The translations under genes and the position numbers were made by a program. A DNA stretch of 64,000 bases, taken from Owenweeksia sp. (GTDB lineage: Bacteria > Bacteroidota > Bacteroidia > Flavobacteriales > Schleiferiaceae). Where the stretch lies: contig NZNV01000006.1 in assembly GCA_002695025.1 (NCBI GenBank), positions 62,001-126,000 of the forward strand. Direction: 5' to 3'. Below, piece by piece: positions 32,508 through 42,633 of the stretch. The notes under the pieces were generated by a model. That model did no database searches. It was not told the DNA's origin and saw only the letters and a program-made list of their open reading frames with translations. Position 1 is the stretch's first letter. Every line of letters begins with the position of its first letter.

Positions 32508-32598
32508 GGAGAGGTGGCCGAGTGGTCGAAGGCGCACGCCTGGAAAGTGTGTATACGTCACAAGCGTATCGAGGGTTCGAATCCCTCTCTCTCCGCCA
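32508..32598 (+). tRNA. tRNA-Ser (anticodon GGA)
   Basis: 91 nt with long variable arm (class II). Acceptor GGAGAGG against TCTCTCC (one G-U), D-arm GGCCGAGTGGTCGAAGGC, anticodon loop CTGGAAA giving GGA, variable arm with GTGTGTATACGTCACAAGCGTAT, T-arm GAGGGTTCGAATCCCTC, discriminator G and an encoded CCA. GGA reads UCC/UCU serine codons. Confidence 0.95.
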
Positions 32599-32662: not shown

Positions 32663-33646
32663 TCAGGTTTTGGTATAAGGCTTGATCTGAAGGATGCGCT
32701 TATTGAAATTTATAGTGATTATACCAGAAGCCATCAGGTCATAGCCTATGAGACCATCCGCGCGAAAACCAAATGCCCGGAGTTTCTTTAGATCGGTGGC
32801 CAGCATTTTTACTTCACTTAGGTTCAAACCGATCTTAATTTGGTTGAGCTGTCTTATTTCCAGGTCGGAGCGGTAACCATCAGTACTAAAAAGTTTTTGA
32901 CTGCTTACGGGTTTGGTGTAAATACTGTCCTGATCCAGTATGCTTTTATCGAGCAGCAGAACCTCAGAACCGCTGTCAAATAGAAGGTTATAGGGGCGAT
33001 GGTTGATCCGGGCTTCCAATTGTATAAAGGCGCCTTTGTATGTAAAGGGCATGGAAATAATTCCCGACTGGGGAACCGGGCCTTGTTTATGCAGTCGTGT
33101 TCCGTTCTGGTCAATTCTGAAGATCCGCAATACTTGATGCTGTAAATCAATTTCCAGTTCCTCACCTTTAAAAAGATTGATACCCAAGAGGCCAAGTATC
33201 TTAACATTACGTTTTCTTTCGATGTGACTCAGGTCCATCACATCGGCCATTTGGTGCTTGAAGCTAAGCTCTTTCAGTTTCAAATTAGCCACAGAACGTA
33301 TCCTGACGTCACGTATGATGCCATTCACACCAGTGGCTTGTCGGGTAGGGTCGGTATGGTAATCTTTAAAATGAGTTTCATTTAAAACGAGGCAGGGTGC
33401 ACCGGTATCGAATATGAAGTAGCCGCTGGTTCCGTCAGCTTCACCTTTGATCAGGATCAGCTTATGAAGCTTGTAAATGGGCACAGTATAATGGGTAGTA
33501 AGCTCATTTTCAACTGCAGGCCATGAAATTTCACTTCTGTAGCTGGAGCAACTGCTCAGGATCAAGCTGAAGAGTGCTATGAATACGGCTGCGTTTTGAG
33601 GTTCAAAACTTCGTGAAGTTGTTTTTTTATTTATCGCTGATCTCAT
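32663..33646 (-). CDS. Lipoprotein aspartyl protease (retropepsin-like, two-domain)
   Basis: 327 residues from ATG 33646. The frame is open back to 33832 but the extra part covers a hairpin and the operator/promoter, so it is rejected. The signal ends in LILSSC (Cys33, lipobox), so a lipid anchor is likely. Catalytic motif 1 is DTG at 80-82 (FIFDTGAPCLVL), motif 2 is DSG at 224-226 (LLFDSGSEVLLL). Having both Asp in one chain suggests a monomeric pepsin-like arrangement from a fused pair of retropepsin domains. Its promoter shares the operator pair of the neighbouring regulon. Substrate unknown. Confidence 0.8.
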   Translation of the reverse strand: MRSAINKKTTSRSFEPQNAAVFIALFSLILSSCSSYRSEISWPAVENELTTHYTVPIYKLHKLILIKGEADGTSGYFIFDTGAPCLVLNETHFKDYHTDPTRQATGVNGIIRDVRIRSVANLKLKELSFKHQMADVMDLSHIERKRNVKILGLLGINLFKGEELEIDLQHQVLRIFRIDQNGTRLHKQGPVPQSGIISMPFTYKGAFIQLEARINHRPYNLLFDSGSEVLLLDKSILDQDSIYTKPVSSQKLFSTDGYRSDLEIRQLNQIKIGLNLSEVKMLATDLKKLRAFGFRADGLIGYDLMASGIITINFNKRILQIKPYTKT

Positions 33647-33673: not shown

Positions 33674-33740
33674 GAGGCAAAGAAAGATCAGTGGGGCAGC
33701 CTGGGAGTTTGGAATTTCAGTAGATAGGTGCGGTATTACA
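33674..33740 (-). promoter_or_regulatory. Activator-type promoter with two 13-bp half-sites (aspartyl protease gene)
   Basis: Half-sites GTTTGGAATTTCA (33707-33719) and GTGCGGTATTACA (33728-33740), 21 bp apart start to start, with a GAGGCAAA core (33674-33681; TTTGCCTC on the minus strand) at the -7 position. Same geometry as the elements at 34626-34692 and 36510-36576. The -7 box is imperfect (TTTCTTTG), as expected for an activator-dependent promoter. Confidence 0.6.
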
Positions 33741-33799
33741 TACCCGTACCAGGTAACCGTTTTTCTATGGATAAGAGTGATGGGGTTTAAATCCAGAAA

Positions 33800-33825
33800 C
33801 GCCCGGAACATGTTTGTTCCGGGCG
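33800..33825 (-). terminator. Hairpin after the first DUF4386 gene
   Basis: CGCCCGGAAC and GTTCCGGGCG form a perfect 10-bp stem with a 6-nt loop, 53 nt beyond the stop of the DUF4386 gene. The following T content on the minus strand is modest, so this may be a weak terminator or a 3' stabiliser. Confidence 0.5.
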
Positions 33826-33878
33826 GATCCAAATACCTATTATTGGTGTAGGCTACTTAGTTACTTGATGGATGCTTT

Positions 33879-34580
33879 TCAGGCTTTGGTTTTTCCTCCT
33901 TTGATGATCAGCCAAAGGGCAAAACCCAATTCTCCTATGGTCATCGGAATGGCCAGGATGCTCTCCAATAGGGTTAATGAACCGGAAACCTCCGGGACTA
34001 TGGCATAGAGCGTATGAAGAAGTGTATAGCTCACCCCTGCAATCATCAACAATATACCCCAGGCATTGTGAATATGATCAGCTAAAAGACTGAGGTACCC
34101 CAATACCACTAGATGGAGCCCGAAAATGATCAGGCCATGTGACCAGATGTTCTCAAAGGAATTGATACAATTGAGAATATCGGTGGGTCTTTCGGCCATT
34201 CCAACTTCCGAAAGCTGCTCATTCAATAGCGTTAAGATCTGGGGTAGATTGAAGATAGCCACACCTAAGATAGCCGTATATAACACCCTCAGAAATGAAC
34301 TTAAAAATGACAAACCTTTGTGGGTTGTGGCAAAGAAGTGATAGAGAGCCCAGGCTACAAGAGCATCCAGGAGGAAGATGATGGTCCATCCCAATAATTC
34401 TGCTCTGAAAAGACCGGTTGAAGATTGCAGGTTACTTACTGTGGCCGGGGCATTATCCGCTACTACCAAGCTACCATGTAAATAACCGTAGGTGAGTCCG
34501 GCTACTATGGCCATTATCAATAGCGATATTCCGGCAGTAAGTGCAGAAGCGCGTTGTGAAATACGTTTGGACTTTTTCAT
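33879..34580 (-). CDS. DUF4386 integral membrane protein, copy 1
   Basis: 233 residues, six predicted helices. Features of DUF4386 include an N-terminal ISQRASALTAGISLLIMAIVAGL, WTIIFLLDALVAWALYHFFATTHK, the block YTAILGVAIFNLPQIL and the C-terminal helix FGLHLVVLGYLSLL. DUF4386 proteins are multipass inner-membrane proteins of unknown function. A second copy lies at 34740-35456. Its promoter carries the same operator pair as the aspartyl protease and oxidoreductase genes, suggesting a common regulator. Confidence 0.85.
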   Translation of the reverse strand: MKKSKRISQRASALTAGISLLIMAIVAGLTYGYLHGSLVVADNAPATVSNLQSSTGLFRAELLGWTIIFLLDALVAWALYHFFATTHKGLSFLSSFLRVLYTAILGVAIFNLPQILTLLNEQLSEVGMAERPTDILNCINSFENIWSHGLIIFGLHLVVLGYLSLLADHIHNAWGILLMIAGVSYTLLHTLYAIVPEVSGSLTLLESILAIPMTIGELGFALWLIIKGGKTKA

Positions 34581-34625
34581 AGTTTCAAAGAGTTAGCTTG
34601 CTGAAGCAGTTCGGTTTTTAATTCT

Positions 34626-34692
34626 GAGGCAAAACTACCGGCAACCGGAAGAGTGGGAGTCCGGCTTTTCATTAAAAAGGTTCGGAATTATA
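34626..34692 (-). promoter_or_regulatory. Activator-type promoter with two 13-bp half-sites (DUF4386 copy 1)
   Basis: Half-sites GTCCGGCTTTTCA (34659-34671) and GTTCGGAATTATA (34680-34692), 21 bp apart, with a perfect -7 box TAGTTTTG on the minus strand (34630-34637). The proximal half-site lies where the -33 element would be. A further sequence GTTCGGTTTTTAA at 34609-34621, in the leader, also fits the half-site but is not at the 21-bp spacing. Confidence 0.65.
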
Positions 34693-34739
34693 AGTTGGCG
34701 ACCAGAAATATTTTGCACCTGAATTAAGGGTTCCAGGAA

Positions 34740-35456
34740 TTAAAGAGTGTGGATAGGTTTACCAGGGCTGGATTTTCGGATCCCTTTGATCAGCAACCAA
34801 AGGGTAAGCGAAAATTCTCCCACGATGCTGGGAATAACCACGATCATTTCAAATATCCCTTTGTGATTAGCATAATTCGCCAAGAGAAACTGCGCGAAAC
34901 TGTCGATGAGATAACCGAGAGCAGCAATTTGTAAAAGCGGGCCCAAAATCCACGGAAAATAACATGATCTGAATACGAGATAACCCAGTATCAGCAAGTG
35001 CAGGCCAAAAAACACGAGCCCCAGCAACCAGGTGTAGTTGAAAGCTTTAAGCAGCATCATTACCTGCGCCTGAATATGGCTTTCGTCAAGTACCTGCAGG
35101 TAATCCGCCCCGCTAAGCAGGTGAATAATACCAAATAAATTGAAAATGGCTACGGCAAATACGGCCCCATTGACCAATCGCAACCAGGCTGAAAGCATGG
35201 CTAAATATTTATGGGTTGGTCGTAACAAAAGGTACAGCGGGTAGGCCATTAGAACATCGGTAATGATCATGATGATGAAGCCAACCGTGCCTAAACGGAA
35301 CTGTGAGAGGTTGTTGGTAATATTCTCTGTGGTAGCTACAGCATCTCCGTCTACCAGCAGACCTTCCAATACAAAGAAGTTGGCAAAAAAACCGGTGCTG
35401 AAAATAATCAGGTATCCCAGGCCAGCTATTCTGGCTATATTTTTTAATGATCTCAT
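34740..35456 (-). CDS. DUF4386 integral membrane protein, copy 2
   Basis: 238 residues, six predicted helices, same family as the previous gene (IARIAGLGYLIIFSTGFFANFFV, GTVGFIIMIITDVLMAYPLYLLL, FGLHLLILGYLVF). It lies 11 bp after the oxidoreductase gene and so is probably translated from the same mRNA. DUF4386 function is unknown. A paralog pair with a local regulator suggests a role in a specific membrane stress or redox response, which is inference. Confidence 0.85.
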   Translation of the reverse strand: MRSLKNIARIAGLGYLIIFSTGFFANFFVLEGLLVDGDAVATTENITNNLSQFRLGTVGFIIMIITDVLMAYPLYLLLRPTHKYLAMLSAWLRLVNGAVFAVAIFNLFGIIHLLSGADYLQVLDESHIQAQVMMLLKAFNYTWLLGLVFFGLHLLILGYLVFRSCYFPWILGPLLQIAALGYLIDSFAQFLLANYANHKGIFEMIVVIPSIVGEFSLTLWLLIKGIRKSSPGKPIHTL

Positions 35457-35467
35457 TTTTAGTTGTT

Positions 35468-36460
35468 TTATGGTTGAACGTTGATGATAACGTTGCCTTT
35501 TTTGTGGCCGGCATCCACATAAGTATGGGCTTCGGCTACTTTTTCCAGGGGGTACTGACGGTCTATCACGGTTTTGAGGTGTCCCGCTGTAACAATTCGG
35601 ATCACTTCTTGAAGCATTTCCCGTAGCTCACGATCTGAACGAAGGCCGGTAGCGGCAAACTTTGCTTTTTTGCGACCAAATCTGGAGGTCCACAGCATTT
35701 GAAATAAAAGTGGGAATTGTAAAACCGGGGAAATATACTGGCCCTTTTCAGTCAGTACCTTTTTGCACTCTTTAAAACTCCTTTTGCCCAGGGTATCGTA
35801 GATCACATCATAAGTTTGCCCGGTGGTGGTAAAATCCTGTTTGGTATAGTCTATTATATGGTGAGCTCCTAAAGATTTTACCAGTCCGATATTCCGGGTG
35901 CTGCAAACAGCGGTTACCTCCGCGCCAAAGTATTTGGCCAGCTGAACGGCAGCTGTCCCCAGGCTTCCCGAGGCACCATTGATCAGTACTTTCTGACCCG
36001 GTTTTACTTGTGCTATTTCTTTCAGGAAGTTATACGAGGTAAGATGGCCGTCCGTAAAGGCAGCAGCTTCAGTATAGCTGATACTGTCAGGTTTTTTAAG
36101 GATCACCCCGTTTTCAGGAACAGCCACAAACTCTGCATTGGTACTGAAGCCAAGGGTGGTCTCACCAAAAACGGCATCTCCTACCACTAAAGAAGAAACC
36201 TGGTTTCCCACGGCTTCCACCACACCGGCAAAACCGGTTCCTGGTATAGGATGTTTGGGTGTGCGCAACCCGGTAAATAATCTTCCGAAGTAGGGGGTGC
36301 CCGTACGCATCATGGTGTCGGCTTTGGTAACAGTGGTAGCGTGTATTTTGACCAGAACCTCATTACTTTTTATAGTGGGTGTATTCACATCCTGGAGTTG
36401 CAGAACTGCAGGAGAACCATAACCTGTGGCAACTATGGCCTTCATCTTTTTTGCTTGCAT
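35468..36460 (-). CDS. Zinc-less NAD(P)-dependent oxidoreductase, quinone reductase/MDR family
   Basis: About 330 residues from ATG 36460 (track start 36505 precedes the promoter). Medium-chain dehydrogenase/reductase fold. The N-terminal GroES part MKAIVATGYGSPAVLQLQDV and the NAD(P)-binding NGASGSLGTAAVQLAKYFGA are typical, while the zinc-binding Cys/His of alcohol dehydrogenases are absent, so it is probably a quinone- or alkenal-reductase type enzyme. The first gene of an operon with DUF4386 copy 2. The promoter has the shared operator pair. Next to it lies the TPR/AraC regulator gene. Confidence 0.85.
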   Translation of the reverse strand: MQAKKMKAIVATGYGSPAVLQLQDVNTPTIKSNEVLVKIHATTVTKADTMMRTGTPYFGRLFTGLRTPKHPIPGTGFAGVVEAVGNQVSSLVVGDAVFGETTLGFSTNAEFVAVPENGVILKKPDSISYTEAAAFTDGHLTSYNFLKEIAQVKPGQKVLINGASGSLGTAAVQLAKYFGAEVTAVCSTRNIGLVKSLGAHHIIDYTKQDFTTTGQTYDVIYDTLGKRSFKECKKVLTEKGQYISPVLQFPLLFQMLWTSRFGRKKAKFAATGLRSDRELREMLQEVIRIVTAGHLKTVIDRQYPLEKVAEAHTYVDAGHKKGNVIINVQP

Positions 36461-36509
36461 GTTATTATGAAGTCTTAATGTTTGATATGCCTGTCCTTCA
36501 GGCATTGAC

Positions 36510-36576
36510 GAGGCAAAAGAAGGGCGGCAAGCGGATGCGTCCGTTCGGTATTGAAAGGAAGGGGTTCGGGATTATA
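36510..36576 (-). promoter_or_regulatory. Activator-type promoter with two 13-bp half-sites (oxidoreductase operon)
   Basis: Half-sites GTTCGGTATTGAA (36543-36555) and GTTCGGGATTATA (36564-36576), 21 bp apart, with the GAGGCAAA core at 36510-36517 (minus -7 region TTCTTTTG). Geometry is identical to the two other elements. A perfect inverted repeat ATGCCTG/CAGGCAT (36487-36505) lies between the element and the gene. Confidence 0.65.
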
Positions 36577-36621
36577 AATACAAACTGAAAAGGCCGGTTT
36601 TACGGGCGAAGAAAGGCGGAA

Positions 36622-38406
36622 TCAGGCTTTGCTGGCTTTCAGGAATTCCTTGGGTGTCATGCCCACTTCCTTTTTGAAGTAAGTGTTGAAAACCGTTTTA
36701 GAGTTAAAGCCACTTTCATACGCCAGGCCAATCAGTGAAATGTGGGAGTTGGAAGGGTTTGTAGCAAGACCTTTAAAAGTCTCTACCCGGTAGTGATTGA
36801 TAAACTCATTGAAGTTCTTTCCTAGTTTTTCATTCAGCAACCATGAAAGTTGGTTAGGGTGAATTTGTAACTGCTGGGCCAGGCTGCGTAAGCTAAGTTG
36901 CGGGTTGAGAAAGGGTTCTTCCTCGGAGATATGTTGTAAAAGGAGAGCCTGGTAATCCCTGGCGGTTTGTTCATCCAGTAAGGGCGGTTTTTTACGTGCA
37001 AATGTATGCTCCGGTAATATACCGTACATTTTCACCCTGAACTCCTGATAGCGCGGATCACGCTTCAATGGCCCGGCTAATGGATCACTGAATCCCAGGA
37101 GTAGAATGGATGATTTAAGTTCCATAGCTTTTTGAAGCCAGTTAAAGGCCTCGTCATTTTTGCCCTTTTGGGCATAAGCCTGGAACAGGTAGGAATGCTG
37201 CTGGAAGGCCATGGGATTTTGTGACTCTTCGAGGAGTTGATTGAAGGACGTTTTTACTTGGTTCTCCATGCCTCCAATAATGTGAGCCAGTGCCGTGATG
37301 CCCAGCTTATCACCGGGAACGATGATCTCAGCAGGCTGAGCATGGATGAAGTCCAGTGCTTCCCCGGAACGGTTCAATATCAGCAGGCAATAGCACTTGG
37401 TGATGATTGCGGGAATGTTTTTAGGGTTGTGATGGAGGCATTGTTCCAGCAGGTCCAAAGCATCCTCCACTTTTCCGGTGCGGTATAAGTAATAGGCTTT
37501 ATAGAAAAGGGTTTCCTGGTTAAGCGGATCTATTTCCAGGGCTTTGCTCAAATGCTCCCATGATTTTTGCGTTTCGTCAGCCAGGATGTATAAAAATGAC
37601 ATAAACTGCTGTGCCTCGGGATAGTTAGGCATATATTCCACCGCTTTTAGGCCGTGCTGAAAGGCCTCCTGGAAATCAGCGTTCGTAAAAAAGGAAATGT
37701 TGGCCAGTTGATAATGCGCTCCGGCATGCCGGGGGTTCAGTGCCAGTGCTTTTTGGGTATAGTCACTGGTTTTTTGCCAGGCCTCTACATAGGGCATAAA
37801 GCCGGTAGTGGCCATAAAGCCGTAAGCATCGGCCAGCCCTACATAGGATTCTACATGATGAGGGTCCAGCGCCAACACTTTTTCCCAGAGGTCTATGGCC
37901 ATCTCAGCATCCTGCGGGTTCCATTTATTAAAATGATAACGTGCCCGCAAGGAATATTCGTAAGCATCCAGGTTGTCGGTCTGTTTTTCCACCAGATGGT
38001 CACTGATCTCAAAGTGCCCGAATTGTTCCCGGAGCTTATCCGCTATAATCAGGCTGATCTCATCCTGGGTCTCAAAAATATTTTCCAGTTTGCGGTCCCA
38101 GGTCTCAGACCAGAAATGAAAATCCTCTTCGGCTTGTATAAGCTGGGCTGTAATACGTAGCATGGTCCCTGATACCCGCACACTGCCTTCCAGTATGATA
38201 GCCACACCGAGCTGACTGGCCACCTCTTTAAGTGGAAATGATTTATTCTTAAAATAAAAGGAGGAGGTGCGCGAGGTGACCTTCAGGTTTTCGATCCGCG
38301 AAAGTGCGGTAATGATCTCTTCGGTAATTCCGTCACTGAAATACTCGTTCTCCTTATCGGAACTCATATTTACAAAGGGTAGAACGGCAATGGTATGAGC
38401 GGTCAT
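36622..38406 (-). CDS. TolB/TPR-AraC hybrid transcriptional regulator
   Basis: 594 residues from ATG 38406 (the in-frame TTG at 38415 is less likely). Order: an N-terminal domain HTIAVLPFVNMSSDKENEYFSDGITEEI of the FlgO/TolB-like type often fused to adenylate cyclases or regulators; a long TPR array (about 170-460); and a C-terminal AraC DNA-binding domain with LRSLAQQLQIHPNQLSWLLNEKLGKNFNEFINHYRV and LIGLAYESGFNSKTVFNTYFKK. No signal peptide and no receiver, so it acts in the cytoplasm and senses something through the TPR/TolB part. The best candidate to bind the repeated half-sites of this block. Confidence 0.85.
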   Translation of the reverse strand: MTAHTIAVLPFVNMSSDKENEYFSDGITEEIITALSRIENLKVTSRTSSFYFKNKSFPLKEVASQLGVAIILEGSVRVSGTMLRITAQLIQAEEDFHFWSETWDRKLENIFETQDEISLIIADKLREQFGHFEISDHLVEKQTDNLDAYEYSLRARYHFNKWNPQDAEMAIDLWEKVLALDPHHVESYVGLADAYGFMATTGFMPYVEAWQKTSDYTQKALALNPRHAGAHYQLANISFFTNADFQEAFQHGLKAVEYMPNYPEAQQFMSFLYILADETQKSWEHLSKALEIDPLNQETLFYKAYYLYRTGKVEDALDLLEQCLHHNPKNIPAIITKCYCLLILNRSGEALDFIHAQPAEIIVPGDKLGITALAHIIGGMENQVKTSFNQLLEESQNPMAFQQHSYLFQAYAQKGKNDEAFNWLQKAMELKSSILLLGFSDPLAGPLKRDPRYQEFRVKMYGILPEHTFARKKPPLLDEQTARDYQALLLQHISEEEPFLNPQLSLRSLAQQLQIHPNQLSWLLNEKLGKNFNEFINHYRVETFKGLATNPSNSHISLIGLAYESGFNSKTVFNTYFKKEVGMTPKEFLKASKA

Positions 38407-40821: not shown

Positions 40822-42633
40822 ATGAAAAAACCAGTCTTCATCACCGTATTACTACTGCCCCTTTTATACGCGGGCGCCCAGGATGTTACAAGGTATAAGC
40901 GGCTGAGGAAAACAGACAAAGAGCTTAACCAGATACTACAGGATTGGAACGTGCCGGGCTTTGCCGTAGCGGTGGTAGAAAAGGATAAGATCATCTATTC
41001 GGCCGGCTACGGCTACCGTGATTTCGAGAATAAGAAACCGGTTACGGTAAATACGCTTTTTCCCATTGGCTCCAGCACCAAGGCCTTTACCGCTACCCTT
41101 CTCGGACAATTGGAAGCCCAGGGAGAGCTGGAACTAACGGACCGCCCGGCTCAATACCTCCCCGGTTTTCACTTTTACAATGAGGGGATGGATCGTGAAA
41201 TAAGCCTTCTTAAAATACTGAGCCATCAAACGGGCCTGCCCCGTCATGATTATTCCTGGTACTACTTTCCTTCCGGATCCAGGGAGGAACTGGTGGAGAG
41301 GATTGCCCACCAGGAGCCTACGGCCAAAGTGGGGGAGCAATGGCAGTACAATAATTTTATGTATCTGCTGGCTGGTTCGGTGGCCGAACAGCTTAAGGGC
41401 AGTAGCTGGGAGGAACAGGTAGATGAACGAATTTTTACGCCTTTGGAGATGGGTCGCTCCAATACTTCTATTGTGGAGATGGCACAGGATGATGATGCCG
41501 CAAAGGGCTATACTGCCCACCTGGACCGCGATCCCGAACGGGTCAATTATTATGATATAAAGGGAATGAGCCCGGCCGGTGCCATTAATAGCAGTGTAAT
41601 GGAAATGTCTCATTGGCTGATGACCTGGATCAATGGAGGTGTCTACCAGGGGAAAGAAGTGTTCTCATCAGCTTTTTATGAAAGAGCCATCAACCCTCAA
41701 ATAATGATGGGGGGCAGCCCGGGAGCCAGGCATCCGGATATTCATTTATCATCCTACGGCCTGGGTTGGTTTATAACCTCCTACCGAGGACATTACCGGG
41801 TGGAACACGGAGGTAATATTGATGGATTTTCCTCCAGCGTGGCCTTTTACCCCAGTGATAGTATTGGGATAGTAGTGCTGGTCAATGAAAATTACTCTGC
41901 CCTGCCGGACATTATCCGGAATACTATTGCGGATAAGCTGTTGGATCTGGAACCCGGAAACTGGAGCGAGGAAAGGCTTAAGGGCTACCGCGCTGCCCTG
42001 AAAAGCAGCCAGCAGGATACCACGCAAGAAAAAGATATGCTGCGCAAACCGGGTACCGTGCCCTCACATCCTTTAGAAGCCTTTACCGGAAAGTTTGGTC
42101 ACCCTGGATACGGCACGCTGGAAATAAAACTGGTGAATGATACATTGCTGGCTTCCACCTGCTATACCGATATGCAGCTTCGCCACTACCATTATAACGT
42201 TTTTGATGTAAGAGTTACCCGTAAGGGAGAAGATACTAACGCTTACGATAGTGGCCTGAAGTTCAATTTCCAGGTTTCGGAAAGGGGTGAAATAGAATCA
42301 TTCAGCAGCGGATTGCAGGAAGGTCTGGACCCTATCCGTTTTGATAGAGCGCCCCTGGAAGAGGCTTTGGAAACCGAGGAAATGATGGCCTATGCCGGTA
42401 ACTATTCCTTGCACGGGATGGTCTTTAAAATATTCCTGGCCAAGGATTCTGCCCTGCACATGGAGGTTCCAGGGCAACCGGAATACACCCTGGTTCCGTA
42501 TAAGGCCGATGAATTTAATATTGAAGGACTTAAGGGATACGGCTTGCGGTTTATACGCAATGAGGAAAGCCTGATCCATAAGGTTTTGCTAATGCAACCG
42601 AATGGTACCTTTGAAGCTGAACGTAAAGACTGA
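40822..42633 (+). CDS. Serine hydrolase, class C beta-lactamase-like, with C-terminal domains
   Basis: 603 residues with a signal peptide (VFITVLLLPLLYAGAQ). The beta-lactamase fold has SxxK in FPIGSSTKAF (about 73-82), YxN in QYNNFMY and HGG in VEHGGNIDGF. The C-terminal ~200 residues have the DUF3471-like end (AYDSGLKFNFQVSERGEIESF, EMMAYAGNYS). Members include D-aminopeptidases and esterases in the periplasm; true beta-lactamase function is uncertain. A kinase/regulator pair follows 14 bp later and may share the mRNA, making this hydrolase a possible output. Confidence 0.85.
   Translation: MKKPVFITVLLLPLLYAGAQDVTRYKRLRKTDKELNQILQDWNVPGFAVAVVEKDKIIYSAGYGYRDFENKKPVTVNTLFPIGSSTKAFTATLLGQLEAQGELELTDRPAQYLPGFHFYNEGMDREISLLKILSHQTGLPRHDYSWYYFPSGSREELVERIAHQEPTAKVGEQWQYNNFMYLLAGSVAEQLKGSSWEEQVDERIFTPLEMGRSNTSIVEMAQDDDAAKGYTAHLDRDPERVNYYDIKGMSPAGAINSSVMEMSHWLMTWINGGVYQGKEVFSSAFYERAINPQIMMGGSPGARHPDIHLSSYGLGWFITSYRGHYRVEHGGNIDGFSSSVAFYPSDSIGIVVLVNENYSALPDIIRNTIADKLLDLEPGNWSEERLKGYRAALKSSQQDTTQEKDMLRKPGTVPSHPLEAFTGKFGHPGYGTLEIKLVNDTLLASTCYTDMQLRHYHYNVFDVRVTRKGEDTNAYDSGLKFNFQVSERGEIESFSSGLQEGLDPIRFDRAPLEEALETEEMMAYAGNYSLHGMVFKIFLAKDSALHMEVPGQPEYTLVPYKADEFNIEGLKGYGLRFIRNEESLIHKVLLMQPNGTFEAERKD

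Follow-up and report, generated by a model that had tools for sequence, protein, structure and literature searches.

Background

Three promoters in a 64-kb stretch of DNA (the window, meaning the whole stretch that was analysed) carry pairs of short direct repeats and lie beside a gene encoding a regulator with an AraC-type helix-turn-helix (HTH) domain. A sequence-only reading of this DNA had proposed that the regulator controls a small regulon of three transcription units through these sites and that two DUF4386 proteins act in the same response. The locus raises the question of whether the repeats are operators, which protein would bind them and what response they would serve. In this study, the sites were searched for in the window, in the complete genome and in Bacteroidota relatives, and the regulator and its putative targets were analysed by Pfam, structure prediction and fold comparison.

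Results

Half-sites, promoters and genes in the window

The features of the locus, with the supporting evidence in brackets, are as follows.

36622..38406, minus strand: regulator of 594 aa with a CadC-like TolB/FlgO-type alpha-beta domain, a TPR superhelix and a C-terminal AraC HTH
36577..36585, minus strand: operator 1, inverted arm GTTTGTATT, partly decayed, 6/9 to GTTCGGAAT
36564..36576, minus strand: operator 1 (reductase promoter), distal half-site TATAATCCCGAAC (sequence and genome pattern scan)
36543..36555, minus strand: operator 1, proximal half-site TTCAATACCGAAC (sequence and genome pattern scan)
36514..36521, minus strand: -7 element TTCTTTTG of the operator 1 promoter, with TTTG 25 bp from the proximal half-site
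35468..36460, minus strand: predicted zinc-less MDR enone/quinone reductase, ADH_N/ADH_zinc_N_2 (Pfam; conserved operator target)
34740..35456, minus strand: DUF4386 membrane protein b, one transcription unit with the reductase (Pfam; pLDDT 92.7)
34680..34692, minus strand: operator 2 (DUF4386a promoter), distal half-site TATAATTCCGAAC (sequence and genome pattern scan)
34659..34671, minus strand: operator 2, proximal half-site TGAAAAGCCGGAC; upstream inverted arm lost, 3/9
34630..34637, minus strand: -7 element TAGTTTTG of the DUF4386a promoter
33879..34580, minus strand: DUF4386 membrane protein a (Pfam)
33741..33749, minus strand: operator 3, inverted arm GTACGGGTA, partly decayed, 5/9
33728..33740, minus strand: operator 3 (aspartyl protease promoter), distal half-site TGTAATACCGCAC (sequence and genome pattern scan)
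33707..33719, minus strand: operator 3, proximal half-site TGAAATTCCAAAC (sequence and genome pattern scan)
33678..33685, minus strand: -7 element TTTCTTTG of the aspartyl protease promoter
32663..33646, minus strand: lipoprotein-type aspartyl protease (Pfam Asp_protease_2)

All six half-sites were found where they had been reported, in three pairs with starts 21 bp apart; the coding-strand form of the half-site is TnnAATnCCGAAC, and the half-sites of operators 2 and 3 are weaker. The gene assignments (reductase, two DUF4386 proteins, aspartyl protease and TPR-AraC regulator) were likewise borne out by Pfam. Exactly 25 bases lead from the proximal copy to the core GAGGCAAA in all three promoters (33674-33681, 34626-34633 and 36510-36517), as the earlier reading had noted; on the coding strand this core reads TTTGCCTC and supplies the TTTG of the -7 element of Bacteroidota sigma-A promoters, an element with the consensus TAnnTTTG, numbered T-12 to G-5 (PMC6847099). 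Within the window the full consensus is present in operator 2 only. Single half-sites occur at background frequency (allowing up to 2 mismatches, the window contains 73, against 62 +/- 8 expected), and a seventh site that had been suggested at 34609-34621 was dropped because single copies are no commoner than in shuffled DNA. In the window, the scans detected no site ahead of the regulator's own gene, and pair scans detected none at an apparent PF00144-type serine hydrolase gene (40822-42633). A tRNA-Ser (GGA) lies on the plus strand at 32508-32598, just past the protease gene.

Genome-wide and phylum-wide scans for the pair

Searching the complete genome (4.46 Mb) with a pattern that covers all three pairs gave exactly three matches, which share one strand and are those of the three promoters described above, and the reversed pattern, used as a control, gave none. 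Allowing up to 3 mismatches to the consensus pair returned the same three matches, again with 0 in the control. The pair is thus restricted to these promoters, which was the outcome of the whole-genome check that had been suggested. Because the pattern had been fitted to these very sites, independent evidence was sought in relatives. From GTDB genomes, 79 loci that encode relatives of this regulator were taken (1.13 Mb, window excluded), and the half-site derived from the window alone was applied to them unchanged with up to 3 mismatches. As a result, 39 pairs were found, 17 at a spacing of 20 and 22 at a spacing of 21, while the 26 other spacings from 13 to 40 gave 0-4 pairs each in the same loci and shuffled loci gave 0.1 pairs on average. 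The spacing of 21 bp therefore describes the window correctly and does not hold in general, where 20 or 21 bp is seen.

A two-part fixed weight matrix requiring both halves, which replaced a first iteration that had drifted to the strong distal half and lost spacing specificity, recovered sites at spacings 20 and 21 only, with none at 14-19 or 22-31. Most sites lie a few tens of bases 3' of the regulator stop codon and precede the following co-oriented gene. A loose pair pattern was run against 29 genomes that encode the regulator and gave 21 matches, with 0 in the reversed control. By their coordinates, 20 of the 21 coincide with the regulator locus or lie no more than about 10 kb from it; the sole match away from a recorded regulator locus was G454:C326:8808-8841 (L114). 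A strict pattern was present in 4 of 396 genomes of the phylum sample, in 2 of them beside the regulator, and the other 2 matches, inside unrelated coding genes, were rejected as chance. This pattern was too strict, having missed true sites in genomes G162 and G203 that the matrix recovered.

Operator anatomy and promoter geometry

Relatives of the locus define the full operator as a 22-bp palindrome, GTTCGGAATTATAATTCCGAAC, followed 20 or 21 bp on by one direct half-site. The distal half-site belongs to the palindrome, and in the conserved form an inverted half-site is fused to it; the description of the operator as two direct repeats was therefore real as far as it went and incomplete. On average, 6.6 of the 9 bases in the upstream arm can pair with the other arm, against 2.3 at random positions. 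In the window this arm has decayed, matching the consensus at 6, 3 and 5 of 9 positions in operators 1, 2 and 3. Of 48 regulator orthologs, 34 have the palindrome (up to 6 mismatches) in the 300 bp that follow them downstream, and random windows from the same loci contain it only at about the rate expected from overlap with the true site. Three loci (L128, L131 and L132, in genomes G191, G139 and G143) have an intact palindrome (3-4 mismatches) without a recognisable direct copy; the reductase genes there adjoin a more distant regulator relative, with open frames of about 770-790 aa. These palindrome-only cases suggest that the palindrome may represent the operator's older core.

A constant distance of 25 bp from the proximal GAAC to the start of the TTTG in the -7 element was seen in 49 of 55 sites, at repeat spacings 20 and 21 alike, and identifies the proximal copy as the one phased to the promoter. 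In these sites, the T and the A that precede TTTG in the consensus TAnnTTTG are each present in 78%. By the numbering of PMC6847099, the proximal half-site occupies -46 to -34, abutting position -33, and the distal one -67 to -55 when the spacing is 21; the proximal copy abuts the promoter element without covering it. Direct half-sites about two helical turns apart near -35, as for AraC/XylS proteins, were thus found at 20 and 21 bp only. Since -46 to -34 is a class II activator position, the placing of the operator favours activation, without proving it.

Co-occurrence of operator and regulator

The operator (pair or palindrome) was found close by in 45 of the 48 orthologs with enough downstream sequence. 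The reductase was also searched for in 396 Bacteroidota genomes, and 30 reductase loci were examined, the regulator positions near them being taken from the best few scored candidates per genome. The palindrome (up to 4 mismatches) lies upstream of 7 of the 8 reductase genes beside a regulator-family gene and of 0 of the 22 without a neighbouring regulator, none of which has a match better than 7 mismatches. The operator thus follows the regulator, not the target enzyme, and conservation with the regulator across Bacteroidota, the second check that had been suggested, was confirmed. Operator presence and spacing cluster in a tree of 71 regulator rows, on which 16 changes account for the operator class (20, 21 or none) and shuffled labels take 33; the class "none" comprises 26 rows, including orthologs with a palindrome only or no site near (L008 and L037). 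From the ortholog co-occurrence, the reductase contrast, the 29-genome scan and the tree, we infer that the adjacent regulator is much the likeliest binder of the sites. Starred clades of the tree mix Flavobacteriales, Bacteroidales, Cytophagales, Saprospirales and an Ignavibacteriota MAG, and this mixing of orders suggests that the module may have spread by horizontal transfer, or else reflects binning errors in MAGs.

The regulator

Pfam matches in the regulator were to TPR and HTH_18, and its C-terminus holds a two-HTH AraC domain (HTH_18, 56.3 bits with a cut-off of 33.6; HTH_AraC, 32.9 with a cut-off of 26.6). Pfam found only TPR and HTH, with neither histidine kinase or receiver domains nor an OmpR-type winged helix, in place of which the AraC HTH stands, and no membrane segment is apparent. 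AlphaFold gave a confident chain (pLDDT 91.7) with a TolB/FlgO-like alpha-beta domain, a TPR superhelix and the AraC HTH, and the model matched the periplasmic domain of CadC (3ly9) with TMt 0.64 over 322 columns. A HilA/EilA-family model aligned to residues 2-294 with 58.1 of 589 bits, far below its curated cut-off. The regulator accordingly has the TolB/FlgO-like plus TPR arrangement of the CadC/HilA sensor fold; this part was also matched in rhizobial proteins, some of them annotated as adenylate/guanylate cyclases.

The putative targets

The nearest solved structures to the reductase are enone/quinone oxidoreductases (4ida, 1yb5 and 5a3j). It scored 175.8 of 296.8 bits against the PIG3 model TIGR02824, below the curated cut-off, and is a relative, not a member, of the PIG3 NAD(P)H quinone oxidoreductases. 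On the regulator's strand and no more than a few kb past it, the 48 ortholog loci contain the reductase in 42 cases and DUF4386 in 18, which agrees with the proposal that DUF4386 belongs to the same response. The conserved core consists of the regulator, the operator and the zinc-less enone/quinone reductase, often with DUF4386. No relative of the aspartyl protease was found in other regulator loci, and this putative target was found in the window only; of the proposed three-unit regulon, the reductase and DUF4386 recur in the ortholog loci. DUF4386 protein b folds confidently as a helical membrane protein (AlphaFold pLDDT 92.7), and no structural relative of DUF4386 was found in the PDB by sequence or by fold.

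Operators in other loci also stand ahead of beta-lactamase-fold serine hydrolases, an esterase and small secreted proteins. Those ahead of serine hydrolases of the beta-lactamase/PF00144 family include three from Prolixibacteraceae (L004:9825, L012:9821 and L064:11759). A separate regulator clade of about 41% identity (L052:9858, L055:9814 and L065:9797) has the operator ahead of a gene for a roughly 200-aa secreted protein without a Pfam family, in place of the reductase.

Discussion

Proposed mechanism and its alternatives

We consider it very probable that the neighbouring gene product, a cytoplasmic one-component regulator, uses the repeats as its operators and would activate a local reductase/DUF4386/protease response; genome restriction and conservation with the regulator both support the earlier proposal of a small regulon controlled through these sites. 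The AraC-type HTH would read the half-site TATAATTCCGAAC. The palindrome that includes one copy has its centre roughly 65 bp 5' of the predicted start site, and the other, direct copy begins two helical turns (20 or 21 bp) closer to that site and would, at -46 to -34, sit next to RNA polymerase. For the three promoters, transcription is predicted to start near 36509, 34625 and 33673. The CadC-like TolB/TPR domain may take the signal, upon which the regulator would act as a class II activator, binding cooperatively at the palindrome and activating from the phased proximal half-site. The zinc-less enone/quinone reductase, the DUF4386 proteins and, in this organism, the aspartyl protease would be switched on together as one local response, plausibly to reactive electrophiles.

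The same sites could instead serve repression, with the palindrome-bound protein blocking the promoter until a signal releases the block. Palindromes near promoters are common for repressors, palindrome-only variants exist here, and local detoxification-like genes generally resemble repressor-controlled oxidoreductase operons. The proximal half-site, however, only abuts the promoter, its fixed 25 bp to TTTG in 49 of 55 sites is a strict phasing that a repressor would not need, and AraC-type proteins with such a geometry are usually activators; we regard repression as unlikely. It is still less probable that the sites belong to a different transcription factor, conserved with the gene group by happenstance. 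A second AraC-like gene does occur in a few loci, and binding by the regulator is itself deduced, but the operator tracks the regulator across many families and is missing at reductase relatives without it, and no other regulator gene is consistently present among the genes annotated in the loci.

In many loci the palindrome lies 10-60 bp past the regulator stop codon, and its arms could pair as a stem of 9 bp closed by a 4-base loop, as would an RNA hairpin (terminator) of the regulator mRNA. This reading was rejected as highly improbable: no T-run follows, the direct copy and the -7 phasing would be left unexplained, and copies of the element are also present at promoters distant from the regulator, at 34692 and 33740 of the window, in L004, L012 and L064, and in a divergent arrangement in L040. 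Chance likeness of the three promoters, with which the background frequency of single half-sites would agree, has a negligible probability, being refuted by the independent recurrence of pairs at 20/21 bp only in the regulator loci, window excluded.

Comparison with known systems

Activation by the adjacent regulator would have partial parallels elsewhere. At araI1-I2 of Escherichia coli, AraC binds two direct half-sites 21 bp apart, with the proximal one beside -35, and acts as a class II activator. Both this spacing and the proximal copy next to the -35 region are shared, whereas AraC has an arabinose-binding cupin ligand domain, a sigma-70 promoter and no palindrome fused to the distal half-site. 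The AraC-type hybrid two-component systems (HTCS) of Bacteroides have predicted operators of direct repeats averaging 21 bp apart (PMC3878776), and the basic geometry is therefore not new. The likeness to HTCS comprises the AraC HTH, the phylum, the direct repeats of about 21 bp and local regulons (PMC3878776). However, HTCS are membrane-bound sensor kinases controlling polysaccharide loci, while here a TolB/TPR sensor is fused to the HTH without a kinase, and the operator has another motif and a third, inverted half-site. CadC and HilA share the sensor fold, an alpha-beta domain with TPR-like helices, but have a winged helix of OmpR type at the N-terminus, and CadC is a membrane-spanning protein, whereas the present regulator has a C-terminal AraC HTH and no apparent membrane segment. 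The zinc-less MDR reductases (strawberry enone oxidoreductase 4ida, zeta-crystallin 1yb5 and ceQORH 5a3j) are homologous over most of the target length; for the clade described here, which scores under the PIG3 cut-off, an enone/quinone substrate is predicted from homology.

Novelty and significance

No papers on DUF4386, on Bacteroidetes TolB/TPR-AraC proteins or on the site were found, with subscription journals mostly outside the search. The statement that no system of this kind has been described appears to stand for the site and the regulator type, though not for the repeat geometry, known from HTCS. What is new here is the combination of sensor and HTH with an assigned site, the operator of palindrome plus direct repeat, its phylum-wide conservation and the link to DUF4386.

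On balance, we lean towards a Bacteroidota-wide, hitherto undescribed one-component stress system, partly spread horizontally, in which a CadC-like sensor-AraC protein reads a tripartite operator and turns on an enone reductase and DUF4386. TolB/TPR-AraC proteins occur in many Bacteroidota genomes, and the literature found assigns them no site, target or signal. The base-level operator, the promoter geometry and the conserved target set make binding and regulon directly testable in several cultured species, strong sites being present in Prolixibacter, Draconibacterium, Arenibacter and Echinicola, and the motif can be used for regulon annotation in new genomes. DUF4386, for which neither a paper nor a structural relative was found, is now tied to an enone/quinone reductase response. 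If the proposal is true, this regulator family would gain its first binding site, and DUF4386 a first functional context.
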